A DNA stretch of 64,000 nt from Alphaproteobacteria bacterium (GTDB taxonomy: Bacteria > Pseudomonadota > Alphaproteobacteria > UBA828), in assembly GCA_022826665.1 (NCBI GenBank), contig JAJDUK010000063.1, positions 1 through 64,000 on the forward strand. The letters are read 5' to 3'. Made by a program: the position numbers and the translations under genes. Shown one piece after another: positions 1-15,561 of this stretch; positions within the stretch are counted from its first letter, which is position 1; the number at the start of each line of letters is the position of its first letter. The notes beneath the pieces are model-generated. The model made no database searches. It had not been told where the DNA came from and saw only the letters and a program-made list of their open reading frames with translations.

Positions 1-114
1 GGCGGCATGCGCTGGACCGTCAACGGCGCCAACGCCATCATCGCCCTGCGCTGCGCCGTCGAGAGCAATCGCTTCGACGATTTCTGGGAACGGCGCGCCG
101 GCGCAGCAGCATGA
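1..114 (+). CDS. ISKra4-like transposase, C-terminal end (partial)
   Basis: An open frame enters from the left edge and stops with TGA at 112-114. Its tail reads RWTVNGANAIIALRC followed by SNRFDDFWERR, which matches the C-terminus I know from ISKra4-family transposases. In those proteins this block sits at the very end of the DDE domain, so only the last 37 residues of a much longer protein are visible. A stem-loop follows 50 bases downstream. Whether the element is complete cannot be judged from this window. The family call rests on this short motif only. Confidence 0.7.
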   Translation, partial: GGMRWTVNGANAIIALRCAVESNRFDDFWERRAGAAA

Positions 115-163
115 ATCTCACAAATCAGACGTACACCCCAATCGATCGTTCTCTAATATCTTA

Positions 164-195: not shown

Positions 196-1670
196 GTTAG
201 CCCCAATACTGTTCACTTGATGACTTTGATGCTGTTGACGGGATTGACGGCAGGACGAGGAGGGGTGTCGGGCCGGCGCAGTGGGAACTTGCTCAGTTTT
301 GCGTTTGACGGCGCGCGGGTTTTGCCGGTTTCGACTGGAGACAACACGTTCCTGAAGGATTTCGTCGAGGACGGCGTCATGGAAGGCCTTGCTCTTCCGA
401 GGGGGGGATGGCTATGGCGGCGGGCAGCTTTCGCCGCACCACGCGCACGGCGTGAAGGAAGGAGAGCCGGTCCGGGTCTTCGTCGGCTCTCAGCGCCGCC
501 TCGTGGATCAGGCTTCGGATGGCGAAGTGCGCCATCATGAGGCCATAGAACTCCTGGCGGACGAGGTCCGGCGTCTTGCTGCGCAGGACGATCCTGGCGC
601 CCCGCAGATGGGTCTTGAGTTCGTCGAGGGCGGTCTCGATTTCCCAGCGCTCATGATAGAGGGCCGCCAGCTCATGCGCTGGCGCCACGTCGTGGTCGAG
701 GATCGTGGTGAGCAGCCGATAGAACGGTTCGGCGCCGCCGACACCCTCCAACCGGTAGTCGATCGCCCGCACCGTGAGCCCGCCGCTCCGGTGGCGGCGA
801 TCCCGTTCCGAGGGATAGATCGTGCTCAGGTAAGAGCCGTCGGGCAATCGCCGGTCGGGGACCAGGCGCATGTTCTTCCTGACGCGCCAGAGCAGGTCGG
901 CCCCGCTGCCGCACGCCAGGGACCACAGCGCGAAGCCGAAGAACTGGCGGTCCGCCAAGCACAGCATGCCGGCCTCCAGACGGCCGAGCACGGCTTTGGC
1001 GAGCGCGATCTCGCTCGTCCCATAGCCCGCCATCTCGCTGGCAAACAGCACATGCGTACCGTTCTCCACCAGCGAAACGAAGCGCAACTGCGGGAAGGCG
1101 CTGCGGCCCCGGCTGGCGCCGGGCCGGCCGAACGCTGCGGCGTTCGACGCCTCGTCGGCAACGTCGAGGGTGCTGCCGTCCAGGCTCACCAGACGCCAGC
1201 GCCCATACCACGCCCCCCAGGTCACCCGATCCGCAATCGGCTTCACAACCGCGCCATGCAGACGGTGCAGCGGCTCCCAGCCAAGACGCGTGCGCGCCTG
1301 CGAGATCCCCGACTTGCCGGCCACCTCAAGCGCCTGCGACGGACCGGCCAGCCACTGAACCCCCTCCAGCAAGCAGCGCAGAACCTCGCGGTAGGACGAG
1401 TGCATGTAGAGCGCAAGCGCGATGACGTAGTACACCACCACAGGCGACGGAAGCGCGCGCCGGCGCTGGCTCGACCGCCCGGTATCCCGTAGAACAGACT
1501 GCACCGTATCCAGCGGAAACGTCTTCGCGATCACACCCAGACTGATGTAGTCGGTGACGCGAGAACCCGCCGGGAGAGCCCCAACAGTGCGTGACATCGC
1601 CCTGACCCCTGCTGCGTTCACAGGCCCGCGACCATAGCATCAATCCCTAAGTGATCAGTATTGGGCTAGC
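196..1670 (-). mobile_element. IS4-family insertion sequence, apparently complete (about 1.47 kb)
   Basis: Imperfect terminal inverted repeats flank a single intact transposase gene. The left copy (196-218) and the reverse complement of the right copy (1649-1670) share CCCAATACTG followed by TCACTT, with one substitution and one inserted base upstream. The element is about 1.47 kb, which is normal for the IS4 family. I could not identify a convincing target-site duplication, so the exact outer bases are uncertain by a few positions. The element sits between the ISKra4-like tail and the integrase gene. Confidence 0.75.
377..1621 (-). CDS. IS4-family transposase
   Basis: This 414-residue protein catalyses transposition of the element around it. 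The N-terminal third resembles the IS4-type N-terminal domain. The DDE residues fit the IS4 pattern: D in SLDGSTLDV, D in CLADRQFF, and the late Y-R-E-K signature in YHERWEIETALDELK. Length and residue order are normal for the family, with no internal stop or frameshift, so the gene is probably functional. The ATG at 1609 (MSRTVG) lies 12 bases upstream of the alternative at 1621 and cannot be ranked against it by sequence alone. Confidence 0.9.
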   Translation of the reverse strand: MNAAGVRAMSRTVGALPAGSRVTDYISLGVIAKTFPLDTVQSVLRDTGRSSQRRRALPSPVVVYYVIALALYMHSSYREVLRCLLEGVQWLAGPSQALEVAGKSGISQARTRLGWEPLHRLHGAVVKPIADRVTWGAWYGRWRLVSLDGSTLDVADEASNAAAFGRPGASRGRSAFPQLRFVSLVENGTHVLFASEMAGYGTSEIALAKAVLGRLEAGMLCLADRQFFGFALWSLACGSGADLLWRVRKNMRLVPDRRLPDGSYLSTIYPSERDRRHRSGGLTVRAIDYRLEGVGGAEPFYRLLTTILDHDVAPAHELAALYHERWEIETALDELKTHLRGARIVLRSKTPDLVRQEFYGLMMAHFAIRSLIHEAALRADEDPDRLSFLHAVRVVRRKLPAAIAIPPSEEQGLP

Positions 1671-3464: not shown

Positions 3465-4691
3465 ATGGTTGTGCCTCTAATGATCAGTAGCAAGGACGAC
3501 GACCTGGTCGGCGTCGCCCGCCGCTCCGACCCGCTGGGGTTGCTCGCGGTGTGGTCCGCCCGCGCCCGTGAGGCGGTGCCCCATCTGACGGAACAAACGA
3601 CGGAAGTACGCGGATTCCAGATTCTGGTTGAGGCGTTCCGGCTTTGGACCATCTTTGTGAACAGGGAGCCGCACCCCCCCGAGCGGCTCATGCAGTTCTT
3701 CATGCTCGTCGAGCAGGCGTTCGCCCGCACGGTCGGCTGCCGAGATGGCGACTGGCCGCTGCCGGGCGCACGACGCGTGAGGTCCCGCTTGGGCGAAATC
3801 CCTTGCGTCTCGGTGGCGGATGACAGGTGGCACCTTCTTGGAGGTCAGTTGGTCAACGGGATCTGGGGGCTCTACCGAGGCGCGGCCCGACGGGCGGGGC
3901 TGTTGGACGCCAATATGGCCTGGCTATCCGACGACACATTGGCGGCGGCGTCCGCCACCTCTTGTCTGCGCGACGCCGCTCTTGAACGGTTCCTCGGACT
4001 GATTGGGCGAGCAATGGACCGTGAAACCGTCGTCTTGCCCACCGACGGAAGGAATGCGCTCCCGAGCGTGCTGCGCAGGACGTTCGACGAGGTTCCGCTC
4101 AGAAGTCATCTCCGGGAAAGGCTCATCGACGGCCACGCTCTGAACCAGGCGCTCGCGAACAGGCTGGTTCCTTTGGAGCAGCTGAACCACCGGGAGTTTT
4201 TCAAACTGGCGGCGCTGGAACTCGGGGAACACAGCCCGGTACTGAATCGGATGATCGACTGCGAAAACCTGCTCGTAGTCCTGGAGGGTATCTTCTACCG
4301 ATTGTGTTGCGCCAAGGGCGAGTCGATCGAGGCGCTAGCGGAGTCTTTACCCGTGCATATGGGGGAGATTCAGAATGCCGGGGAGGCGTTTGCGGGTTCC
4401 GGCACGTACACGGGAGAGGCGGCAGGGAAAAGAGAGGCCCGGTTGTACGAGACAGTTGACACATCCAGCCGCGTAAGGCTCGCACGCTCCGTGTTGTCGC
4501 TACACCAAGCGGTAAGCGAAGAACGCCAACGCGCTGCCTGGGTGTGGGAAGATCAAGGGAAATTGCGGAGCGACGTCGACGTCGCGGAGCCAGATGAAGC
4601 CGATCTGAAAGTCGGACTGGCGTGGCGCAACGACTACTACCTGCGACCGCTGTCCAGCATCGCCCGGCAACTCGAGGAACTCGGGACTTGA
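3465..4691 (+). CDS. Unknown protein, first gene of the helicase/PLD operon
   Basis: A 408-residue soluble protein that I do not recognise with confidence. The N-terminus contains RRSDPLGLL and then a region ending LTEQTTEVRGFQILVEAFRLW. From memory this layout loosely recalls the DUF6361-type accessory proteins that sit beside PLD and helicase genes, but the match is weak. No nuclease, ATPase or membrane motif was found. Its stop codon overlaps the TTG start of the PLD gene (TTGA), so the two are translationally coupled. A GGGGGA purine run lies about 9 bases before the ATG at 3465. Its fixed position before a nuclease and a helicase suggests a recognition, adaptor or effector role. Confidence 0.8.
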   Translation: MVVPLMISSKDDDLVGVARRSDPLGLLAVWSARAREAVPHLTEQTTEVRGFQILVEAFRLWTIFVNREPHPPERLMQFFMLVEQAFARTVGCRDGDWPLPGARRVRSRLGEIPCVSVADDRWHLLGGQLVNGIWGLYRGAARRAGLLDANMAWLSDDTLAAASATSCLRDAALERFLGLIGRAMDRETVVLPTDGRNALPSVLRRTFDEVPLRSHLRERLIDGHALNQALANRLVPLEQLNHREFFKLAALELGEHSPVLNRMIDCENLLVVLEGIFYRLCCAKGESIEALAESLPVHMGEIQNAGEAFAGSGTYTGEAAGKREARLYETVDTSSRVRLARSVLSLHQAVSEERQRAAWVWEDQGKLRSDVDVAEPDEADLKVGLAWRNDYYLRPLSSIARQLEELGT

Positions 4692-6589
4692 GTAGCCTGG
4701 GCACGATCCGTGAGCGCATTGAGCGGGCTACGGGCTACTTCGCACGTCGCGAGGCCACGGTGCTCACTACATTCAACCTCAACGGCCGATTCCTCGAAGA
4801 GCAGGCACTGCCAGCGATTCTCGGCGTCGATGGCGCGCTTGCAGCCGTCCGGCACGCCGACCTGCATGGGCAATTGGCGGAGACGGAATGCACGGTCTTC
4901 TACGACCCCACGGTGGCGCCCGGTGTCTCCGGTAAGTTCCGCTACGTCGCCCGGCCCGTTCCGCTGCGCGCTCGTCTGTTCCATCCGAAACTGGTGATCA
5001 TCGCTGGAATATCCAAGGACGGGACGACCTGGGTGTATCTCGCCGTCTCGTCCGCGAATCTCACGTTGTCCGGCTGGGGACGCAACGCCGAGTCCTTCGG
5101 CGAGACGTGGATCCATACCAGGACTCAACAGACTTGGCATGGCCTTGATGGGTTCCTGGCGTGGCTGCAGGACTACGCAAACCTGGGCGGAGAGCCCGAC
5201 CGCCGGGATGCCGTGGCGGTTGTTCGAGAGGCGCTCGACCGGATGCCCAGCGGTTACCGATTCCGCGACGATGGCACGAAATTTTGGTCTGGCACTTTAG
5301 GCGCGCGTTTCTACTCGTCCGTGGTCGATACGGGGGGCTTGCCGACATTCCTCAAGATGGGTCGTTCACGTAGGCCGGCAGAACTTTGGGTGTACAGCCC
5401 ATATTGGGGCAGCGTCGCGGAGATGGTCGGCGAATTCGGCGCAAAAAGGACGGTCCTCGTTCCCGCCATGCGCGCCGATCGCAAAGCGATTGGGTTGTCG
5501 AAGAGCCAGCACGATACCGTCAAGGACATCGCCGAGGTTTGGCGCAACGAAAGCGAGAAGCAGGACGATCGCTTCTGGCACATGAAGGCATACTGGATTC
5601 GCCATGGGGAGCGCTTTTACACCAGCGTTGGAAGCTGCAACTTCACGGAGGCCGGACTCGCCGGCGCGAACGGCAACGTCGAAGCCATGCTCGTATTCGA
5701 GAACATGGAGCCCGATTGGCCTGAGGAAAGCGACACCGCCCGCCTGGAAGACCTTTCCGATCAATCGGCCGATGAAGAGGACGCGCCGGAGCCCGTTCCC
5801 GTGGTCATCGTCGTGGCATACGACTGGCGGTCGGAAAGCTGGCGTTGGTTCCTGGCCGCGGACGACTCGCAGGATGACTTCCGCCTGTCGCTGCCTACTG
5901 GCCGCGCCGCTTTCCGTATCGACCCGGGTTCTGGCGATCGCCGGGGCGATCCCCCGAGCTTCCCCGCACACTACCGAGTCACCTACACTCAGCACGCGGA
6001 ACGCAGGGAGTGGCAAGGGCAGGTCGTCGAACTCCACCTGGACCATACCCGACGAACCTACGGCAAACCCCTCTCGGCAAATGACATTCTCGAGAGCTGG
6101 CGCGTCCACGCGAAAACTGGGAGTCCCGGACCCCGGGGCGGTGGGGGCAACGGCAATGAGAACGGCGACGACCCGCAAGCCGAGGTACCGGCGGCTTTCG
6201 ATGCGGTGAACCTCTACGACCTATATCGCGCTATGCGAGCCTTGCGAACGCGACTCGGCGAACTCGAGACAGAGCCGCAGGCGCAGCGGGCGTTGCTGGT
6301 GGGACGGTCCGACAGTGTCGTGGCGCTTGCGCGCCTCGCCGATGGCGACGGCGAAGCCCCGGTTGTCCGGTACCTGGTGCTGCGCGAGTTGTCCAGCATC
6401 GTGGCGGACTGCAAGGGATCCTCATTGCACGGCGACCCCTTGCGCCGTGTGCGCGAGATGAAGCGCCGAGCGAAGGCGACAACGCTGAAACAGCTTGCTG
6501 CCGAGTTAAGGGGCGACCGGGAGAAAGCACGGAGGGTGCTGGACTGGTTCGAGAGGCGACTTGCGAAAATGGATCGTGCTGGAAGATGA
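4688..6589 (+). CDS. PLD-family nuclease with two HxK motifs
   Basis: About 633 residues. Two phospholipase-D-type phosphodiesterase motifs are visible: FHPKL near residue 99, followed by SSANLTLSGWG, and WHMKAYW near residue 298, followed by SVGSCNFTEAGL. Paired HxK...N motifs form the active site in PLD-superfamily nucleases such as DISARM DrmC and helicase-associated PLD proteins. An Asp/Glu-rich linker, a glycine-rich stretch and a charged helical C-terminus follow. I chose the TTG at 4688 because it overlaps the upstream stop as TTGA, has a GAGGAA ribosome site, and the residues just after it look like the domain start. The stop overlaps the next start (ATGA). It probably cuts or processes nucleic acid together with the helicase. 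Confidence 0.88.
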   Translation: MSSLGTIRERIERATGYFARREATVLTTFNLNGRFLEEQALPAILGVDGALAAVRHADLHGQLAETECTVFYDPTVAPGVSGKFRYVARPVPLRARLFHPKLVIIAGISKDGTTWVYLAVSSANLTLSGWGRNAESFGETWIHTRTQQTWHGLDGFLAWLQDYANLGGEPDRRDAVAVVREALDRMPSGYRFRDDGTKFWSGTLGARFYSSVVDTGGLPTFLKMGRSRRPAELWVYSPYWGSVAEMVGEFGAKRTVLVPAMRADRKAIGLSKSQHDTVKDIAEVWRNESEKQDDRFWHMKAYWIRHGERFYTSVGSCNFTEAGLAGANGNVEAMLVFENMEPDWPEESDTARLEDLSDQSADEEDAPEPVPVVIVVAYDWRSESWRWFLAADDSQDDFRLSLPTGRAAFRIDPGSGDRRGDPPSFPAHYRVTYTQHAERREWQGQVVELHLDHTRRTYGKPLSANDILESWRVHAKTGSPGPRGGGGNGNENGDDPQAEVPAAFDAVNLYDLYRAMRALRTRLGELETEPQAQRALLVGRSDSVVALARLADGDGEAPVVRYLVLRELSSIVADCKGSSLHGDPLRRVREMKRRAKATTLKQLAAELRGDREKARRVLDWFERRLAKMDRAGR

Positions 6590-9500
6590 CGCCGTTCACC
6601 GACCCCATTACCCCCGATGACGTTGTGGAACTGATCGACTTCACGGTTGCCGATCGGGAAACGGAATCGATGGCCCGGATGCAGCGCGAAGGCGTCGCGG
6701 CGCTCTACAACATCCTGTGCAAGGGTCCGGTCGCCTACCTTGCCGACGAGGTCGGCATGGGCAAGACGTACCAGGCGCTGGGGCTGGCCGCGCTGACGTG
6801 GAATCAGAAGCCGGGCGCACGCATTCTGTTCGTCAGCCCACGCCAGAACCTGCAGGAGAAATGGGTCGACGACTACAAGGGGTTCTTCGCCTCTAACTAC
6901 CGTCGCCAGCAGAAGATGGGCGATGACCGTGTCACCTCCGTGCTGTTCGGCGAGCCGGTCCACCGCCCCGTCGCCTTCGACAACCTGAGGAGCTGGACGC
7001 CGACGATCAGCATGCCGGAACAGATCGCCCCGTTCCTACGCCACACCAGCTTCATGCGACCGGTGTTTGTTGGTTCCGGCGAGCTGACCGGAGACATGGA
7101 TCAGCTATGGCGCCACTGGCGGGACCGATTTGAGAGCTGGACGCTCTTCGAGTCAAGACGACCGAGAGGGCTTTCGCCGGACAACGCATCCCGCGAACTG
7201 AATATCGCGTTTGCCCGAGCACTGAACGCAAAGCTCACCGCAGAGGCGCCATGGGGCGAGCCGTACTTCGACCTTGTCGTCGTGGACGAAGCCCAGTGTC
7301 TTCGCAATCCGGACAACCAAACCAATAGCGTGCTCTACGAGGCACTGAATTGTCAGGTCGCCAAGTGGTTGTTCATGAGTGCGACCCCGGCCCACGGCGG
7401 TCCAGGCGACATCCCGAGGATCGTCAACAAGTACCCGAATTGCGGGGAAATCCTTGATTGTGGGCTTACCAGCGACCTCGGAGAAATGCAGAAGGCGCTG
7501 GGGGACTTCATGGTCCGCCGCCAGCGGCGGTATCTCGCGAAGAATCGGCCGACCATGGTCTGCAAGAGCGAGTACCGGGACCACGACAGAAAGCGCTGGG
7601 CCGTCGAAGGGGCGGACATGTCCGCTTTAGGCACGTTGGCCATGGGCCTGGTCCAGAAAGGTCTGGTCGATGTCCTCGCGAGCCGCAACAACCGCTATCG
7701 AATCGGTTTCCTGTCGTCGTTCGAGAGCCTGCAAAGCTCGATTCGGCCCGTTGAAACAACCGCGGACTTCGAACACGACCACACGCAGGGATCGTTGCCC
7801 CACGCGGCGGACGGCAGCGTCGAGCGAGATGCCCCGGATGCGGGGTTCATCGACGAATTGACGTCGGACTTCCAGAGGCGCTTTGACATGCCGTTGCCTC
7901 ACGCCAAGGTCGACTCGGTCGTTGATCGGATAGCGCCTCTCGCGTTCGGTTCGGACGAGGAGGTGGGCGGCCACAAGTTCCTGGTCTTCGCCCGCCGCGT
8001 GAGCACCGTCCACACGCTGTGCGACCGGCTTGCCCAACGACACCGGCTGGCCGTCGAGGGGAGAATGCGCCGGTGCTGGAACGCCCAAGAGTTCGACTGG
8101 GCCGGGAACGACGTGGGCCACGAGGACGTAATCGACGGTGAAGACGCCGCGGACAGTGAGTCTCACGAAGACGCCCCGGGAGACGATCCTCTCCGGAGGG
8201 CGACGGCGAAGGGGGGCTGGCTCCACCGCTATCGGCAGACCTTCCGGGCAACCGGCCGAAACTCGCTGTTCTTCGAAGACGGCTGGCTGGAACGCCTGTG
8301 CCGGGCGGGTGGCGTGGACCCGATGGACGCCGCAGAGGCAATACCAGACGATATCTGGGCGGAGAGTTGGACCCATGCGGGCAAGGCTGCGGGTAGCGGA
8401 CGCCAGTACCGGGCAAACAGGCTGCGGTATCTTGCGGTACAAAGCCTTCGACGGGTACCCGAGGCATTTGGACTGAGCAAGGCGAGTGCCGAGCCATGGC
8501 GGGTCGCCTACGAGACCTGCCTTCACAATCACCTGGAGGAGGCCAAGCCCAATGCTGAACCGCACCGCGTCCACGATCTTTTCAACTGGCCCACCCTATG
8601 GACAAGGTGGGATTCCACTTTCGCCGGCAAGTGCCTAGCCCTTCCCGCGGACGATCCTGCCTGCGTCCGGGGCGAGGCTGGACGCGACGAGCTTTGCCGC
8701 CGACAGGCAGCGCGGACGATCCTCGGACAGACCTTCCGGCTCACCGACACCCTGCTCGACCTCTACTTCGCGGACGAAGCCGTTGGGAAGTCGAGCCACG
8801 AATTGGCCGAACGGTTTCTGCGTTGGTTGAAGTCCGACGACCCCGGCGCGGCGCAAGTCCGCAACGACTGTGTGCAATGGCTCGAACACCTTCGCCTTAT
8901 CGTGGATGGTTGCCTGGACGGGGCCGGTCGCCCTTGGCACGAGCTGGTCCATGAACAGGAGGAGACGTGGGCGCAGCTCTTCGAATCCGGGCCTGTGCTT
9001 GGCGTGACCGGTGGGTCCGGAGGACATCGCAGGGCGGTCCGCCAGTTCAGGACGCCGTCACTACCCCGCGTGATCGTCTGCACGGACACACTGAAGGAAG
9101 GCGTCGACCTACATCTGTTCTGCGATCACGTCCTGCACTACGGGGTCGCTTGGACGTCGGGCGACATGGAGCAGCGGGTCGGGCGCGTGGATCGCTACTT
9201 CTCGCAGATCGAGCGTCGATTGGCCGGTGAAGGTCCGCCGCCAGACGTGAAGTTGCACGTTGGCTATCCCCATGTCGTCGCGTCCTTGGAGCGCGGACAG
9301 GTCGAGCGTGTCATCCAGCGGCAGAGAGACGTGGAAGCGCTGATGGACTCACCGCTCGCCGGGACAGGAGACGACGAACGTGAGCTAGGGGAAGATGCGA
9401 GTGTTCGTCTGCCGAGTGGCCGACAAGACAGGCAGCCCTTCGGCGAGTTGCGCTTCCCGAACCGGCGGCGGAGCATCGCTGCCGTTTCGAACCGCGCCGC

Positions 9501-10320
9501 CGGGGCCGACAGGGAGCACTATCTGAGTTGGTACGGAGCGCTTCGCCGAAAGCTCGCTGAACGACATTGGCGCATCGGAGGCGACGGAAACATGGTGGGG
9601 GATGTCGCCCAGCCGGCTCGCCGTTCGACGCTCTTGCTTGAACGCGAGGAGCGCCAACACGAAATCGAGTGGAATTTCGACGCAGCGCTGAGACGCTACG
9701 TCATCACGTTGGCGAGCCCGCCGTGGCCCACCGACGCGATGTTCAGCGGCGGGGAACGCCGCCGTATCGTAGGCCGGGAGCGCCTGTGTCAGAGCTTCGT
9801 GCGTCTGCTCGTGCCCACGCCGGATGAAGGAGCGGATGAAACTGTAGTTACGGGCCTGATCGACGTCTTGGAGGGCGTCGCGCCAAGAGCGAACGCTGGC
9901 GCCGACGCGTTCTGGGGCGAAGCGTTCGCGGCACTATCTTCTGAAACCGTCGATTGGGAATCGGATAACAAGGCAAGGCTCACGGTTCGGCGCGGCGAGA
10001 GGGCCCAACGAGTGACGGTCTATGCTTACGAGGGAAGCGTACGTGCCGTGAGCGTGGTCTCAGCAACGCCCGACAGACTCGGACACCGAACCGGATGGGC
10101 GCAACCGCCGTCGCCCGAGGACTTACGGGAGTGGATTCTGGACGCCAACAACGAACTCCCGTTGGGATATCTGGACTTGCATAAGCGCCACGGCCTGGTG
10201 TTCGGAATCCATGTCCTGCACGGCGACTTGTCGAGCGAGGCCCGCCGAAGGCTGCTGGAAGAGGTCGCCTGGCGGGCCGATTCGTGGGAAGCGTCCCTGA
10301 CCGGCTCAGACCGTCAGTGA
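6586..10320 (+). CDS. Large SF2 helicase of the PLD operon
   Basis: A 1244-residue superfamily 2 DNA helicase/translocase. Motif I is DEVGMGKT near residue 54, motif II is DEAQ at about 234, and motif III is MSATPAHG at about 264. The second RecA lobe shows KFLVFARR, then CTDTLKEGVDLH and QRVGRVDR (near 864), the Q/R-finger motif VI. About 350 residues separate the first lobe from motif V, so a long insertion lies between the lobes. The DEVGMGKT and DEAQ forms are typical of SNF2-like and DISARM-like helicases. The start overlaps the PLD stop (ATGA). With the two upstream genes it forms a compact operon next to an integrase, which suggests phage or plasmid restriction; that role is inference. 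Confidence 0.92.
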   Translation: MTPFTDPITPDDVVELIDFTVADRETESMARMQREGVAALYNILCKGPVAYLADEVGMGKTYQALGLAALTWNQKPGARILFVSPRQNLQEKWVDDYKGFFASNYRRQQKMGDDRVTSVLFGEPVHRPVAFDNLRSWTPTISMPEQIAPFLRHTSFMRPVFVGSGELTGDMDQLWRHWRDRFESWTLFESRRPRGLSPDNASRELNIAFARALNAKLTAEAPWGEPYFDLVVVDEAQCLRNPDNQTNSVLYEALNCQVAKWLFMSATPAHGGPGDIPRIVNKYPNCGEILDCGLTSDLGEMQKALGDFMVRRQRRYLAKNRPTMVCKSEYRDHDRKRWAVEGADMSALGTLAMGLVQKGLVDVLASRNNRYRIGFLSSFESLQSSIRPVETTADFEHDHTQGSLPHAADGSVERDAPDAGFIDELTSDFQRRFDMPLPHAKVDSVVDRIAPLAFGSDEEVGGHKFLVFARRVSTVHTLCDRLAQRHRLAVEGRMRRCWNAQEFDWAGNDVGHEDVIDGEDAADSESHEDAPGDDPLRRATAKGGWLHRYRQTFRATGRNSLFFEDGWLERLCRAGGVDPMDAAEAIPDDIWAESWTHAGKAAGSGRQYRANRLRYLAVQSLRRVPEAFGLSKASAEPWRVAYETCLHNHLEEAKPNAEPHRVHDLFNWPTLWTRWDSTFAGKCLALPADDPACVRGEAGRDELCRRQAARTILGQTFRLTDTLLDLYFADEAVGKSSHELAERFLRWLKSDDPGAAQVRNDCVQWLEHLRLIVDGCLDGAGRPWHELVHEQEETWAQLFESGPVLGVTGGSGGHRRAVRQFRTPSLPRVIVCTDTLKEGVDLHLFCDHVLHYGVAWTSGDMEQRVGRVDRYFSQIERRLAGEGPPPDVKLHVGYPHVVASLERGQVERVIQRQRDVEALMDSPLAGTGDDERELGEDASVRLPSGRQDRQPFGELRFPNRRRSIAAVSNRAAGADREHYLSWYGALRRKLAERHWRIGGDGNMVGDVAQPARRSTLLLEREERQHEIEWNFDAALRRYVITLASPPWPTDAMFSGGERRRIVGRERLCQSFVRLLVPTPDEGADETVVTGLIDVLEGVAPRANAGADAFWGEAFAALSSETVDWESDNKARLTVRRGERAQRVTVYAYEGSVRAVSVVSATPDRLGHRTGWAQPPSPEDLREWILDANNELPLGYLDLHKRHGLVFGIHVLHGDLSSEARRRLLEEVAWRADSWEASLTGSDRQ

Positions 10321-10465: not shown

Positions 10466-10653
10466 GTGCTGGACGTTTTCGAAACTTGAGGCGCGGCCAC
10501 GTTAGGGATAACTATGAACCCCGCTTTGTGAACGGAGACTTGCGCACTTCAGATTGGCGGCGGTCGACCAGACCCAACCTCTTGGCCAAGGCAAGCAGGG
10601 ACTCCTGTCACGTAGGGTTGTGCCCTTCTGCAAGGCTTGCGCACAGCAATACA

Positions 10654-11264
10654 ATGGACAAGAGCGATGACGTCGCGAGACGGAAGCACTCAATGACAAC
10701 ACGAATGCAACATTATGTGTGGAGAAAACATCTCGAAGGTTGGCAACACGGTTCTGGCCAAATTTGTTGTTCACGGAATGGGAAGGTATTCAAGAGTAAT
10801 CCAGCCAAAGTCATGAGGAAGCGTGATTACTATAGCTTGTCACGGATCACGAGAACGGACATAGCATTCCTTGATGCCATGTTTGAAATGACCAATCCAG
10901 AGCTAAAGAAAGCGCATCGGAACCTCATTGAGGTGTTGGGACACATCGCAAATGCTAATCATGCCATTCAAACATCGGGAAAAGCAACCGAGGAAGAAAA
11001 GAAATACGCAAGAGACTTGATGATAGAGACGGAAGAGAAACTCCAGACCGGCATCGAACAGCGGGCGTTACCAATATTGGAACAGCTGCGTCATGAACAA
11101 ACTGACTTTCTTTCTGATTATGAAATGGCGATGGAGTTTTTTCGGTTTGTCTCTCATCAGTATCTGAGAACGAGAGCGCTCCGGGAGCGAATCGGAGAAG
11201 AACTGAGGCACGGCCCTCTCGGGCGGAATTTTGAACACTTGAAGCACTTGGGAGTTATATACAT
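10654..11264 (+). pseudogene. DUF4238 protein, N-terminal part (split by IS1595 element)
   Basis: Residues early in the frame (MQHYVWRKHLEGW) match the opening QHYVP-type motif of DUF4238 proteins, which often occur in defence islands. The reading frame is intact up to the transposon junction at 11264, then gains a few foreign codons and stops at 11271. Removing the 11265-13739 insertion and one 8-base target copy joins this part in frame to the C-terminal part (GVIY joined to INPKHLV). The start may be 10654 or 10693. Base composition is less GC-rich than the helicase gene. The protein is first in an operon with the HEPN and PLD-like genes. Confidence 0.8.
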
Positions 11265-11334
11265 GGGTTGACTCCGCCGCTCGCGTGTGCTACACTAGTC
11301 CACACGCAAATGAGCGAAAACAAGGAGTCGACTC

Positions 11335-12315
11335 ATGGCAAAAGGTGGACCGGGAAAATATAAACGTGAAGGAATAACAGTGTTAGAATTGGCGACCTTA
11401 TTTCCTAACGAAAAAGCCGCTAAAAAGTGGTTTGAATTTGTTGTCTGGCCGGATGGCAGATTCTGCCCAAAGTGCGGCAGCGTCAACACTTACAAATGCA
11501 AGCACGCAAAGTCTCCCTACAGATGTAGGGACTGCAAGAGATATTTTTCTGTTAAATCTGGCACGGTTCTAGAGGATTCAAAGATACCTCTACAAAAGTG
11601 GGTATACGCTATATATTTAGAGGTCACGAGCCTCAAAGGCATTTCGAGCATGAAGTTGCATAGAGATATAGGCGTGACGCAGAAAACTGCATGGTTCATG
11701 TTGCATCGAATCCGCGAGGCTTGGAAGACCCAAGAATCGGGAATGTTTTATGGTCCGGTAGAAGCTGACGAGACATTTATTGGCGGTAAGAAAAGGAACA
11801 TGTCAAAAGCCAAACGCAAGGAACTAGCCAAGCAGAAAAAGATTAGACCGGACAAGGAAATAGTGGTCGGAATTAGAGGCCGCAAGACCAAAAAAGTAAA
11901 CGTCACCATCGCTAAATACCGCGACGCCAGGACCCTACAGAAGTTCGTTAGAAAGAACATCAAACAGGGATCAATGGTCTATACCGACGGAGCGGCGCAA
12001 TATATAGGTATAAAGGGAGTTGACCATGAATCTGTTAATCACAGTGTCGGCGAGTACGTTAGAGGCATGGCGCATACTAACGGGATAGAATCTTTCTGGT
12101 CCATGCTAAAGCGCTCATACACTGGAACCTATCACAAGATAAGCCCTAAACATTTAAAGCGCTATGTGAAACAGTTTGCGGGCAAGCACAATATGAGAGA
12201 GCTAGACACGATGGAGCAAATGATGCTGGTCGTAGGAATGCTAATCGGTAAAAGATTAATGTATACCAAGCTGACAAGAGATAACGGCAAAAGCTCTCAT
12301 GCTAGAAGTTATTAA
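11335..12315 (+). CDS. IS1595-family (ISXO2-like) transposase
   Basis: A 326-residue transposase. The N-terminal zinc ribbon shows CPKC near residue 44 and CRDC about 20 residues later. The ISXO2-like DDE domain shows VEADETFIGG, VYTDGAAQY and HTNGIESFWSMLKR, in which D, D and the N/E block form the family's catalytic site. It is Lys-rich with AT-leaning codon use, unlike the host genes. An AAGGAG ribosome site lies just upstream of the ATG. No stop or frameshift interrupts it, so the element may still be mobile. Confidence 0.95.
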   Translation: MAKGGPGKYKREGITVLELATLFPNEKAAKKWFEFVVWPDGRFCPKCGSVNTYKCKHAKSPYRCRDCKRYFSVKSGTVLEDSKIPLQKWVYAIYLEVTSLKGISSMKLHRDIGVTQKTAWFMLHRIREAWKTQESGMFYGPVEADETFIGGKKRNMSKAKRKELAKQKKIRPDKEIVVGIRGRKTKKVNVTIAKYRDARTLQKFVRKNIKQGSMVYTDGAAQYIGIKGVDHESVNHSVGEYVRGMAHTNGIESFWSMLKRSYTGTYHKISPKHLKRYVKQFAGKHNMRELDTMEQMMLVVGMLIGKRLMYTKLTRDNGKSSHARSY

Positions 12316-12326
12316 TCGAATAGGGG

Positions 12327-12401
12327 CGACCCCGGTGAGATTCGAACCCACAACCTCGGTCTCCGTCAAAAACCGGCTCTATCCAGTTGAGCTACGGGGC
12401 C
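12327..12401 (-). tRNA. tRNA-like gene with GAC anticodon (Val-type), inside the IS1595 element
   Basis: On the minus strand the sequence folds as a cloverleaf. The acceptor pairs GGCCCCG with CGGGGTC (one G-U pair). The D-stem is GCTC/GAGC with GG in the loop. The anticodon stem is GGTTT/AGACC around TTGACGG, giving anticodon GAC. The variable region has 6 bases. The T-arm is GTGGG-TTCGAAT-CTCAC. No CCA end is encoded. The next five bases on each side (GGGGC and GCCCC) also pair, extending the acceptor helix to 12 bp, which is odd for a normal tRNA. G37 is unusual for a valine tRNA. It may be a functional cargo tRNA or a tRNA-like structural element. Confidence 0.75.
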
Positions 12402-12488
12402 GCCCCTTTCTTTACATCTCTAATTTAGAACATATATATTTTCGGGAATCATAATGAGAAAAAGAACAAAGCTCACAAGACGGATATA

Positions 12489-12516
12489 GGGGAGGATGAA
12501 AATAATCACCCTCCCC
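12489..12516. terminator. Hairpin terminator inside the IS1595 element
   Basis: GGGGAGG (12489-12495) pairs with CCTCCCC (12510-12516) around a 14-base loop and is followed by TTAG. It sits between the rightward transposase and the leftward tRNA and secreted-protein genes and could insulate them. Confidence 0.5.
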
Positions 12517-12607
12517 TTAGTTACATTGGTGGCTTTTGCGTAGGTTTGCTACCGGGCTTGGTAGTATCGTGCAAGCGGCACCACCTCCTTTCGTCAGATA
12601 CTTATCA

Positions 12608-13063
12608 CTAAAAGAATAGGGATACAAAATAGGTATTATCTTCATCATCGAGTCGAATGTCGTACCTAACATCACTCCATTTTCTAATTTTCTTGGTTAT
12701 TCTTTGCTCGGCAAATGTAGTTGCTTTACATATACGAGCGCCGGTTTCCTCAACGTGGACAAGTGTTATGAAGCGTAACTCAAATGTTCCTGCCGAATAA
12801 TTAGCTATGTGAGCATTATCCAGACCAAAGGCCGTGATCGTGGTGAGCACTTCGTCATCTGTAGGTTCTTTTAGTAACCCTAGAGCGACTAAACTTCTAT
12901 TTTCTTCGATGATATCAAACCGAATTTCATCAAGCATTTCCAGCACGGTATCTTTCACGTCAGAACACGATGGATAATCCGCTCGCGCCTGTACAGCTAC
13001 AGTGCTGCCTAGAAAGATAGCACTAGAAAGCAGTCCATATTTTACTAGGAGAGATATTTGCAT
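12608..13063 (-). CDS. Cargo gene: small secreted hypothetical protein
   Basis: A 151-residue protein starting MQISLLVKYGLLSSAIF. It has a clear signal peptide that probably ends after AVQARA, and two cysteines in the mature part (one in PSCSDV, one in ICKATT). I chose the ATG at 13063 because it begins the signal peptide and is preceded by a hydrophilic, low-quality extension. The mature protein is acidic and ends in the aromatic tail YFVSLFF. No family was recognised. Its AT-rich codon use matches the transposase rather than the host. It may be a passenger with an envelope role. Confidence 0.7.
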   Translation of the reverse strand: MQISLLVKYGLLSSAIFLGSTVAVQARADYPSCSDVKDTVLEMLDEIRFDIIEENRSLVALGLLKEPTDDEVLTTITAFGLDNAHIANYSAGTFELRFITLVHVEETGARICKATTFAEQRITKKIRKWSDVRYDIRLDDEDNTYFVSLFF

Positions 13064-13340
13064 GACCGTTCTCCACCCCGTTAGAAGCTGGCAACGGCCC
13101 ATACCCTGGTGCCGGGCCGTTGCAAACTTCTCTTGGGATAGAGAGAGTCCCACCTATTCACCAAAGATCAGGGAGCTACCCCGATCTCGAAGCAAGGTTA
13201 TTATATTCAGTGGGCGACCCGACCAGCGGGTTTCCCAAGTAGAAGTTTGCAGGGAGTATGGTTTCAGAGAACCTTGCAATTTGCAAGGGGCAGGATTATG
13301 CTAGCGATGGCGCTAGTAAAACATTTAGAGGATGTTGGAA

Positions 13341-13502
13341 ATGAATAGAAAACCCCGCCCGATTACTGACGCAACACCAGAAGAAGTTGTAAGGTCTCTT
13401 ATAAAGCCAAACTATCCCAAAAGGCGGGAGGTAGAAGCAGACTGTAAAGAGAAGGATGAATATTTGAGTGACGAGGATTCTAATTTAGAGGATAAAGAAT
13501 AA
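13341..13502 (+). CDS. Cargo gene: 53-residue charged protein
   Basis: The frame begins MNRKPRPITDATPEEVVRSL and ends in an acidic tail; a GAGG motif precedes the ATG. The T-P-E-E-V-V-R-S-L pattern followed by a Lys/Pro-rich stretch resembles, from memory, short passenger proteins found in other IS1595 elements. A GGGGCA/TGCCCC hairpin follows the stop immediately, which supports a real transcription unit. Function is unknown; a small antitoxin or regulator is one possibility. Confidence 0.6.
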   Translation: MNRKPRPITDATPEEVVRSLIKPNYPKRREVEADCKEKDEYLSDEDSNLEDKE

Positions 13503-13503
13503 A

Positions 13504-13526
13504 GGGGCAACCACTAGGACTGCCCC
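13504..13526 (+). terminator. Hairpin after the 53-residue cargo gene
   Basis: GGGGCA (13504-13509) pairs with TGCCCC (13521-13526), two bases after the stop codon. No T run follows. Confidence 0.5.
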
Positions 13527-13647
13527 GATATAGAACTAGACTCTATCAAGTAAATAATCAACGATCCGTGGAACGATTACCAGTAACAGTTGCCAGATCA
13601 ACTTCTTGACCATTTTTTGTTTCCTTTCTTTGGTCTAGAGGTTTCTT

Positions 13648-13687
13648 GTCCCGTGGTCCCTGTCCGGCTGACTTGGGACCACGGGAC
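13648..13687. repeat. 13-bp perfect inverted repeat near the IS1595 right end
   Basis: GTCCCGTGGTCCC (13648-13660) and GGGACCACGGGAC (13675-13687) are perfect reverse complements around a 14-base loop, about 50 bases inside the right terminal repeat. It may stop transcription entering or leaving the element. Confidence 0.6.
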
Positions 13688-13739
13688 CACTTTAGCGCGG
13701 TAGTCCCGAGTTTCAAGCGGTATGTGGGGGAGTCAACCC

Positions 13740-14234
13740 ATGTATATAAATCCCAAGCACTTGGTGTGTCATTGCACAGCCGAAAATCTTGGAGCCAGCC
13801 TATTCGTGGACCGGAGTGAGTTTGAGATTCTTTTTCTGCGGAGCGGTCCAGACCACGAATTCCTAACCGGGGACCAGCCAATAGTGAACTTGTATGGCGC
13901 CATTAGCATGGATAGCCCACCCACTGAAACGGCACTATATTACCCCTTGAAGCCACATCTATCCATGATTCTACTGCCAAAGATGTGTGGACTGACTTCC
14001 ATGAAGGTTCCTCCCATCATTGTCGATCAGTTGAATATTCTCATCGCGCGGAAGGCGAGAGAATTTTTGGTAGCAAGGCGAATGGAATCACTCGAGAGAA
14101 TGAACTCCGGTTTGCAGGAAAGGCAACTGGACGATGGGCATGTATTGCTTGGGAGAATAAAGAATGTAGCGACGCGTGGAGACGAATACGAAGAAGAGAC
14201 AGCGAGCTTAGACGAGAAACTCAATACTACATAA
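13740..14234 (+). pseudogene. DUF4238 protein, C-terminal part (split by IS1595 element)
   Basis: This continues the split gene from the right target copy at 13740. It contains FLTGDQPIVNL and then PPTETALYYPL, the conserved C-terminal block of DUF4238 proteins. Joined to 10654-11264 it would give a protein of about 360 residues, normal for the family. The HEPN gene starts 20 bases after its stop. A downstream promoter, or read-through from the element, would be needed to express the following genes. Confidence 0.8.
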
Positions 14235-14254: not shown

Positions 14255-14770
14255 ATGGACACGATCAAGTGGTTGGAGGCATATGCCCCCGGATTTCAGG
14301 CGTTGTCTGAAGCCAAGCGACGGGAAATCACAGAATTCTTGTTTCTATGGAGTCTGTTTGAAGCTAAAGTGCTAAATGAACGTGGCAGTGCGAATGTGAT
14401 TGCCACATGTTCGGAACGATGGGCCAGGAACGATCATTTGACCGAGGAGACGTTTGGTGAAGAGCTCGTCTATTTTCGCAACCGGTACGTTGTAAATGGC
14501 CAATTCAGTCATCACTTTGATCAGCTACACCTTCGTGTGAACGATGAAGCGGGACTTGTGCGAAGAGTGATCATTGGCGAGGATAGGACGCCGGCGAACA
14601 TCGCAGCCGCTGTGTTGATCATCGTGTACTGGTTTCGGAACAACCTCTTTCACGGTCTGAAATGGTCTTACGAGCTACAGGGGCAGCTTGAGAACTTCGA
14701 ACATGCCAACAAAGCCCTAAAGCGGGCGATCGAGCTCTGGGTTGAAGAGAGGTCTGGCGTACAGACATGA
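14255..14770 (+). CDS. HEPN-domain protein
   Basis: A 171-residue helical protein. Near its end, FRNNLFHG carries the HEPN ribonuclease motif R-x4-H (R128, H133), preceded by a hydrophobic helix (IAAAVLIIVYW). In HEPN toxins and RNases this R/H pair cuts RNA, often tRNA or mRNA after phage infection. I chose the ATG at 14255, 20 bases after the DUF4238 stop, over the longer frame opening at 13985, which only shadows the previous gene. The stop overlaps the next start (ATGA). Its place between DUF4238 and a PLD-like gene suggests an abortive-infection-type module; the exact function is inferred. Confidence 0.82.
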   Translation: MDTIKWLEAYAPGFQALSEAKRREITEFLFLWSLFEAKVLNERGSANVIATCSERWARNDHLTEETFGEELVYFRNRYVVNGQFSHHFDQLHLRVNDEAGLVRRVIIGEDRTPANIAAAVLIIVYWFRNNLFHGLKWSYELQGQLENFEHANKALKRAIELWVEERSGVQT

Positions 14771-15561
14771 ACTTTACCCGTGATGACGATAGCTCCAGAA
14801 GTGAACTTGATCCGTGGCGGATTATTCTGGTCTGTCTCTTCGAGATTGACAGCCATGAGATACCGGGGGTCGTCGATGCGTCAGGCTTAGCAGTCGATTG
14901 GTGGCTCAGCGAACGTGAAGATTACTCAAACAAGTATCGCAAGGCGGCTTACCGGCCACGGATCAACAGGGCTTACGAAGCCCTGAGAGGTGACGACCGG
15001 CTCCGCGTCGCCTTCATCGTTTGCGAGGAACTGGCCCGCAGAGGGATGGCCGATCAGCTCGACGCGGGCTTGCAACGGATCGGCTGGCGCATTGACGGAG
15101 GCGCGCTTGTCACGGCGAATGAAACGGTCCGCGAACTGTTCTTCCCGCAGGGCTCGCAGCATGACGCCTACGTGCACATCAGGAAAATCATTCTCCACGC
15201 CCGCAGGTCACTTCGTATCATCGACCCATACTTGGACGGAACCGTGTTCACAATTCTCGGCGATGTTCAGAGACCACTGACGGTTGAACTGCTCAGCGCG
15301 AAGCTACCGGCGGATTTTGAGCTCGAAACTGAACGGTTCCATCAACAGCACCCGCAAATGCAGGTCGAGACGCGGCGCTCGCGGGACTTCCATGACCGTT
15401 TCATCATCATGGATGACACGGCGTGCTGGCACATCGGTTGTTCGATAAAGGACGTGGGCAATAGGGCGTTCATGGTGAGCGCGATCGAGGACTCCCGGAA
15501 TGCCGAAGCGCTACTAGAAACGCTGCACAGCACATGGGCAGGTGCGGCACCACTTACGTGA
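14767..15561 (+). CDS. PLD-like effector protein of the HEPN module
   Basis: A 264-residue protein coupled to the HEPN gene by an ATGA overlap. The N-terminal half is helical and unrecognised. The C-terminal half contains RIIDPYLDG, then DFHDRFIIMDD (H209, D217) and HIGCSIKDVG, and ends in a short SAIED block. This is the single-motif PLD-like arrangement H-D-R-F...D...G-x-S-x-K-D-x-G that I associate with abortive-infection or toxin-type proteins. Because only one catalytic motif is visible, it may dimerise, as single-HKD PLD nucleases do. A nuclease or nucleotide-modifying role is inferred. Confidence 0.8.
   Translation: MNFTRDDDSSRSELDPWRIILVCLFEIDSHEIPGVVDASGLAVDWWLSEREDYSNKYRKAAYRPRINRAYEALRGDDRLRVAFIVCEELARRGMADQLDAGLQRIGWRIDGGALVTANETVRELFFPQGSQHDAYVHIRKIILHARRSLRIIDPYLDGTVFTILGDVQRPLTVELLSAKLPADFELETERFHQQHPQMQVETRRSRDFHDRFIIMDDTACWHIGCSIKDVGNRAFMVSAIEDSRNAEALLETLHSTWAGAAPLT

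Follow-up and report, generated by a model that had tools for sequence, protein, structure and literature searches.

The mobile elements closest to the one analyzed here are the IS1595-family transposons that carry passenger genes, which share with it a DDE_Tnp_IS1595 domain and a zinc ribbon in the transposase, terminal repeats that start with GGG, 8-bp target-site duplications and cargo placed behind the transposase gene. Natural mistranslating or chimeric tRNAs are also known, for example the Pro/Ala-type tRNA systems of Streptomyces, and these resemble the tRNAs described below in joining the body of one identity to the anticodon of another. They differ in that the element tRNAs reside on DDE transposons of many phyla, have Arg-, Leu- or Ser-type bodies and are not accompanied by a dedicated synthetase in the cargo. 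Allo-tRNAs, likewise non-standard tRNAs from metagenomes, have unusual acceptor/T branches (8/4 or 9/3), whereas the branch of the element tRNAs is the normal 7/5, apart from an outward extension in one copy. Phage tRNAs with anticodon-loop mutations are similarly mobile and altered in the anticodon loop, and are thought to resist tRNA nucleases (PMC10264068, PMC11555353); the anticodon of phage tRNAs generally matches the body, whereas in the element tRNAs the two are mismatched. Neither tRNA cargo nor chimeric tRNAs on IS1595 elements were found in the open-access literature searched, where recurrent mismatched tRNA cargo on small DDE transposons appears undescribed, whereas phage tRNAs are known and partly explained.

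The window is a stretch of 64,000 nucleotides of alphaproteobacterial DNA, from a bacterium of the sponge type. The transposon within it and the gene that it interrupts comprise the following features.

10486-11249, plus strand: 5' part of a DUF4238 gene, split by the transposon (PF14022, profile positions 2-111)
11242-11249, no strand: left copy of the target-site duplication AAGCACTT, matching the right one exactly
11250-13754, plus strand: IS1595-family transposon with cargo, 2505 bp, with inverted repeats GGGAGTTATATACATGGGTTGACTCC / GGGATTTATATACATGGGTTGACTCC
11335-12315, plus strand: IS1595-family DDE transposase, 326 aa (PF12762, E = 7e-39; PF12760, E = 5e-8)
13755-13762, no strand: target-site duplication AAGCACTT, right copy, completing a perfect 8-bp duplication
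13763-14234, plus strand: 3' part of the DUF4238 gene (PF14022, profile positions 184-279)

The transposase combines the DDE_Tnp_IS1595 and zinc-ribbon domains of the family, and the element has both the terminal repeats and the 8-bp duplication expected of it: the termini (GGGAGTTATATACATGGGTTGACTCC / GGGATTTATATACATGGGTTGACTCC) begin with GGG and are identical at 23 of 24 inverted-repeat positions. An earlier note on this DNA had assigned a tRNA gene to the cargo of an IS1595 element, an assignment that the transposase domains, the inverted repeats and the perfect duplication bear out. The element most resembles the ISNwi1-like, passenger-gene-carrying subgroup. When the transposon was taken out together with one of the two duplication copies and the flanks were joined, a single open DUF4238 frame of 418 codons was restored; the locus thus represents a clean 2505-bp insertion. 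A perfect 13-bp inverted repeat, GTCCCGTGGTCCC...GGGACCACGGGAC, lies close to the right end of the element (13648-13687). Candidate defence genes surround the interrupted DUF4238 gene, with PDC-M27A/B/C at 3465-10317 and PDC-S05 at 14767-15561 (PADLOC).

The tRNA gene is located directly behind the transposase gene.

12322-12326, minus strand: outward acceptor extension, 3' half, together with G73 at 12327
12327-12401, minus strand: cargo tRNA with an Arg-type body (A20, G73) and a GAC anticodon, without CCA (ARAGORN, Rfam and our own tRNA model)
12402-12407, minus strand: outward acceptor extension, 5' half (6 bp), pairing with 12322-12327

ARAGORN predicted one tRNA in the window (12324-12402, minus strand) and called it Val from the GAC anticodon. 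Rfam RF00005 matched 12327-12401 at 42 bits, above its curated gathering cut-off of 29, and a tRNA model of our own, built from host tRNAs, gave 56.5 bits. The full cloverleaf had a minimum free energy of -46.7 (z = -3.7), which none of 200 shuffled sequences equaled. The complete fold of a GAC-anticodon tRNA reported in the earlier note is therefore upheld by the ARAGORN call, the RF00005 score and the z score, and the low covariance score that the note had named as evidence against the gene was not what was found, since 42 bits exceeds the cut-off. The Rfam score is nevertheless low for the genome, in which host tRNAs reach 77.6 bits and nearly all of the 46 tRNA matches score higher. G1 lies at 12401 and G73 at 12327, and the sequence reads G73-CCC, so that CCA is not encoded, as the note had also stated; 40 of 44 host tRNAs encode it. 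The gene is convergent with the transposase, the paired structure starting 7 bp past the transposase stop on the opposite strand, and a promoter scan found no convincing promoter for it.

This tRNA has only some of the Val and some of the Arg determinants. The determinants listed for bacterial Val tRNAs are A35, C36, A73, G3-C70 and U4-A69 (PMC9976931); the window tRNA has A35 and C36, but G73, C3-G70 and C4-G69. Those listed for bacterial ArgRS are A20 as the main one in E. coli, then C35 and U/G36, with A/G73 also included (PMC9976931); the window tRNA has A20 and G73, but A35 and C36 replace C35 and U/G36. In reading both comparisons it should be considered that identity determinants are known mainly from E. 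coli. An allo-tRNA branch of the 8/4 or 9/3 type is not present either, given that the acceptor has 7 bp, the T stem has 5 bp and the additional pairs are located beyond base 72. What the gene does combine is a position within a delimited element, a conflict between body and anticodon, and intact acceptor, D and T stems, the features that characterize the class of cargo tRNAs described below. The mismatch between body and anticodon had been overlooked in the earlier note.

Related transposases were collected from named genome contigs (mostly sponge-associated bins of many phyla), relatives and viral contigs, from 398 genomes of the phylum and from 50 whole sponge-type genomes. Inverted repeats and duplications delimited 161 distinct elements, 114 of them with a perfect 8-bp duplication. 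Within the 440 kb of these elements, ARAGORN found 16 tRNAs. When cellular genomes only were considered, 15 tRNAs were found in 339 kb of elements and 5, all ordinary, in 476 kb of flanks (p = 0.003); most of the genomes are metagenome bins, and the numbers of tRNA-bearing elements are small. Our own model recovered two more odd element tRNAs (L084 and L344), and relaxed ARAGORN settings (ps90, ps85) added mainly noise. A transposase search across the phylum found the element subgroup in 26 of 398 genomes, so that it is uncommon beyond bins of the sponge type, and the best matches in a plasmid search were about 41% identical. On the transposase tree, 14 of 116 elements (about one in eight) bear a tRNA, and this distribution needs 14 changes; the tRNAs have thus been acquired repeatedly. 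A lack of cloverleaf conservation among sibling elements, which the earlier note had named as refuting, was not what was found: these 14 elements have cloverleaves, but as many sequences at varying positions. Orientation of the tRNA relative to the transposase is mixed, and the idea that the tRNA serves to process the transposase transcript was rejected on this ground.

All 16 element tRNAs are anomalous. Among host tRNAs, A20 following G18G19 is confined to Arg tRNAs, and it is also present in essentially all class-I element tRNAs; long variable arms occur in the host with Leu, Ser and Tyr anticodons only, one odd host gene excepted. When a long arm was accepted only with a Leu, Ser or Tyr anticodon and A20 only with an Arg anticodon, 16 of 16 element tRNAs and 2 of 44 host tRNAs were in conflict (Fisher p = 1e-12). 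Isotype assignment by whole-body nearest neighbor is weak (25 of 37 correct in leave-one-out), and the case for mismatch therefore rests on A20 and the arm class. Twelve class-I element tRNAs (the window copy, L044, L081b, L094a, L094b, L098, L109b, L249, L309, L313a, L313b and L348) have an Arg-type D loop with A20, but none combines it with an Arg anticodon in a loop of normal form. The anticodon is GCT, GAC, ACC, GCC, CGC, AGC or CAC, except in L313a, where TCG stands in a 6-nt loop; the D loop of L313b has GAA in place of GGA, so that its A follows GA, not GG. Long-arm bodies comprise two of the Leu type, with CTC (Glu) in L082 and ACC (Gly) in L109a, and one of the Ser type with GTT (Asn) in L125/L168. 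L081a, the sixteenth, is degenerate, as is L098. A further Arg-type body with GCT, L104, follows an IS1595 transposase at a distance of 1.1 kb, but the ends of that element were not found. Counting bodies of the Arg type both within elements and next to them, GCT recurs in four, and position N36 is C or U with few exceptions. Decoding would be weakened in several copies by one or two anticodon-stem mismatches or by a loop of 6 nt.

Two other odd tRNAs were noted in the same genome as the window. At 74-162 (minus strand) of L162, near position 700 of contig C54, a Ser-type long-arm body has a CCG (Arg) anticodon; in its wider context (L172) it lies outside IS1595, with a fragment of a transposase gene on one side and a gene like those of phage Mu on the other, both recognized by eye. 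At 6277-6348 (plus strand) of L164, on contig C46, a degenerate tRNA of 42.6 bits has a Glu-like body and a GCG anticodon.

The reading that we prefer, and to which we give slightly less than an even chance, is that the window feature is a passenger tRNA of an IS1595 transposon and one of a class with swapped anticodons whose members, judged from their sequences, may be charged according to the body and are candidate mistranslators. SerRS and LeuRS disregard the anticodon, and the bodies found on the elements are those that would be chargeable despite a foreign anticodon, since the main determinants of ArgRS, LeuRS and SerRS lie outside it; for LeuRS, a large variable region is listed (PMC9976931). 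The cargo tRNAs would be transcribed and matured, with the CCA-adding enzyme supplying CCA where it is not encoded, and would then be charged by ArgRS, LeuRS or SerRS. Arg, Leu or Ser would consequently be put in at Ser, Val, Gly, Ala, Glu or Asn codons, and the cargo tRNAs would act as natural missense-suppressor tRNAs, perhaps aiding the element or a host under attack or stress. A mistranslating role is predicted from A20 or long-arm bodies only. Replacement of Ser by Arg is the firmest prediction, given that the GCT copies have the main ArgRS determinants, and charging of the GAC, CGC and AGC members, the window copy included, is uncertain because they are without C35, the second ArgRS determinant. 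The window copy is among the members least likely to be active, because it has no CCA, has a 6-bp extension and has A35; the 6-bp helix may block RNase P. A broader version of the proposal is advanced more guardedly still, as a possibility well short of even: that sponge-associated IS1595-type transposons spread functional missense-suppressor tRNAs as selected cargo, with bodies of the Arg, Leu and Ser types in use because the corresponding synthetases accept a foreign anticodon, and that a simple DNA transposon thereby provides a switch lowering or altering translational fidelity in the host or in invaders. If charged, such tRNAs would mean that altered decoding rules are moved between phyla by mobile DNA, and they would allow what mistranslation costs and what it gains to be examined directly in nature, besides supplying non-cognate tRNAs ready for use.

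The alternative that survives best, although we consider it unlikely, is that flanking host tRNA-Arg genes were captured and are losing function by neutral decay. The degenerate copies L098 and L081a would be explained in this way, as would the low score and absent CCA of the window copy. Decay is, however, expected to affect all stems. Instead, all 16 element tRNAs but one have intact acceptor, D and T stems, and 12 intact Arg-type copies together had no mismatch in these stems and about ten in the anticodon stems (a count that takes in L104 and leaves out the degenerate L098; apparent mismatches of L313a outside the anticodon stem are an artefact of end slicing, and this row was left out). 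When simulated neutral decay of Arg tRNAs was run through the detector used for the real copies, the anticodon stem consistently received about 37% of mismatches, against essentially all of those observed (p about 5e-5), and the detector found 94% of simulated decayed tRNAs at five substitutions. Given these two values, detector bias is not the explanation for the pattern. Copies with a broken body were also few in the covariance-model search, and capture of ordinary tRNAs should have yielded Arg anticodons and other isotypes too, none of which was found.

Nearly as probable, and still unlikely, is a role as non-decoding tRNA-like RNAs, in which the body is needed for ArgRS binding, as a decoy for a nuclease or regulator, or as a substrate of a cargo enzyme, and the anticodon arm drifts. 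Intact bodies with variable anticodon arms are consistent with such a role. It has been proposed that phage tRNAs work against defences directed at tRNAs and that they differ in the anticodon loop (PMC10264068), and one odd tRNA (L401) sits between restriction-like and PDC-M30A-like defence genes. Against this, the anticodons of the element tRNAs are non-random, as seen in the recurrence of GCT and the bias of N36. The cargo, moreover, shows no common enzyme: none acting on tRNA was found by Pfam or PADLOC. Phage decoys, as far as is known, retain the match between anticodon and body. Uncharged element tRNAs of the kind considered here would represent a new kind of tRNA decoy.

Codon supplementation, the classical role proposed for phage tRNAs, would have the element tRNA serve codons poorly read by the host. 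Given that the host already has Val tRNAs with GAC, TAC and CAC as well as Ser GCT, and that the bodies are wrong for the codon, we regard this as improbable.

The extended acceptor helix was the focus of the earlier note, which described a 12-bp helix with five extra pairs and suggested a processing signal or a recombination structure. The extension is real, although the count is six extra pairs (five G-C and one A-T) and 13 bp in all, as compared with 0-3 outward pairs in 44 host tRNAs. The length of the extension, unusual beside host tRNAs, favours some function, be it in processing, in recombination or in terminating transcription of the convergent transposase gene. The position directly past the transposase stop would suit a terminator, and a T-run, TTTCTTT, follows on the plus strand. 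Sibling element tRNAs, however, have 0-3 flanking pairs, and most encode CCA. The extended helix is therefore not central to the feature, and the suggested signal is not borne out. In addition, a terminator scan gave no flag at the helix, and the element terminates in inverted repeats of the usual kind, bordered by 8-bp duplications, which need no tRNA structure. The six pairs are probably more of an obstacle than an aid to maturation of the 5' and 3' ends. We consider that the extended helix of the window copy is incidental, and a signal or terminator function is very improbable. Least credible of all is recoding of the element's own transposase by the tRNA, such that active protein is made in carriers only: it would account for the linkage of tRNA and transposase, but in 11 bearing elements examined the suppressible codon fell in no conserved Arg, Leu or Ser column, and recoding is thus refuted for the transposase.

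The preferred reading, passenger tRNAs with swapped anticodons, was pursued beyond delimited elements with two patterns combining an Arg body with a non-Arg anticodon. In 50-56 whole genomes (185-215 Mb) these gave eight matches, of which six fall within delimited elements and a seventh, L104, is close to an IS1595 transposase. Because element tRNAs served as the template for both patterns, their own matches arise by construction, and what is informative is how nearly absent matches are elsewhere. The Arg body with GCT gave three matches in 50 sponge-type genomes (L044, L109 and L104) and none in 115 relatives scanned. The Arg body with C36, a pattern that excludes all Arg anticodons, gave five across 56 genomes, namely one in the window, two in L094, one in L313 and, outside elements, L401, an Arg-type tRNA (1495-1569, plus strand; ACT by ARAGORN) between type II restriction enzyme-like and PDC-M30A-like genes. 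A search of 2.9 million viral contigs with the GCT pattern, which was independent of IS1595, gave eight matches. One of these, L176, lies 0.1 kb behind an IS1595-like transposase. The viral element L249 has another odd tRNA. On viral contig L177, three odd Arg-type tRNAs are arranged in tandem (12958-13186, minus strand); two have GCT, and for the third an anticodon of 4 nt was called. Small ORFs that appear winged-helix-like by eye adjoin odd GCT tRNAs in L109 (6614-7006), L178 (2551-3144) and L180 (2-298); in L178 an IS1-like transposase is also behind the odd tRNA.

The remaining cargo of the window element contains a second RNA feature and two ORFs.

12608-13063, minus strand: cargo ORF that follows the leader RNA directly and opens with a signal-peptide-like sequence, MQISLLVKYGLLSSAIFLGSTVAVQA; without a match in Pfam or PADLOC
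13095-13244, minus strand: leader RNA of the cargo, structured and conserved, scoring 121.6 bits with model R2 and supported by covariation
13341-13502, plus strand: small cargo ORF, 53 aa, read by eye

The leader RNA is a candidate for a new cis-regulatory RNA family. It comprises ~150 nt and shows strong covariation, with 97% of cells paired and 11 of 24 pairs changed on both sides, and none of 500 shuffles equaled this; the structure was derived from the same alignment as was tested, which favors the covariation result. Other copies were found in L044 (9545-9692, minus strand), L308 (2397-2542, plus strand), L168 (7159-7305, minus strand) and ~35 more loci. Among the elements fetched, the leader lies inside an IS1595 element wherever the ends are known, and it often stands 4-30 nt upstream of otherwise unrelated ORFs with signal peptides or lipoboxes. 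It is present in 7 of 8 genomes of the genus, where some copies are not adjacent to an IS1595 gene, and is nearly absent from 32 other relatives. Rfam 15 gave no convincing match to it; a match of the L044 copy to sRNA-Xcc1 (25.8 bits against a cut-off of 53) was not reproduced on another strong member and was attributed to chance. Alternative hairpins are possible within the leader, CCCGCU..GUCGGG versus GUCGGGUCG/CGGCCCGGC. On the transposase tree, the leader is scattered over 37 of 116 elements and needs 29 changes, and the impression is that elements swap their cargo in the manner of cassettes. Leader RNA and tRNA occur together in nine elements, more than expected (p = 0.01).
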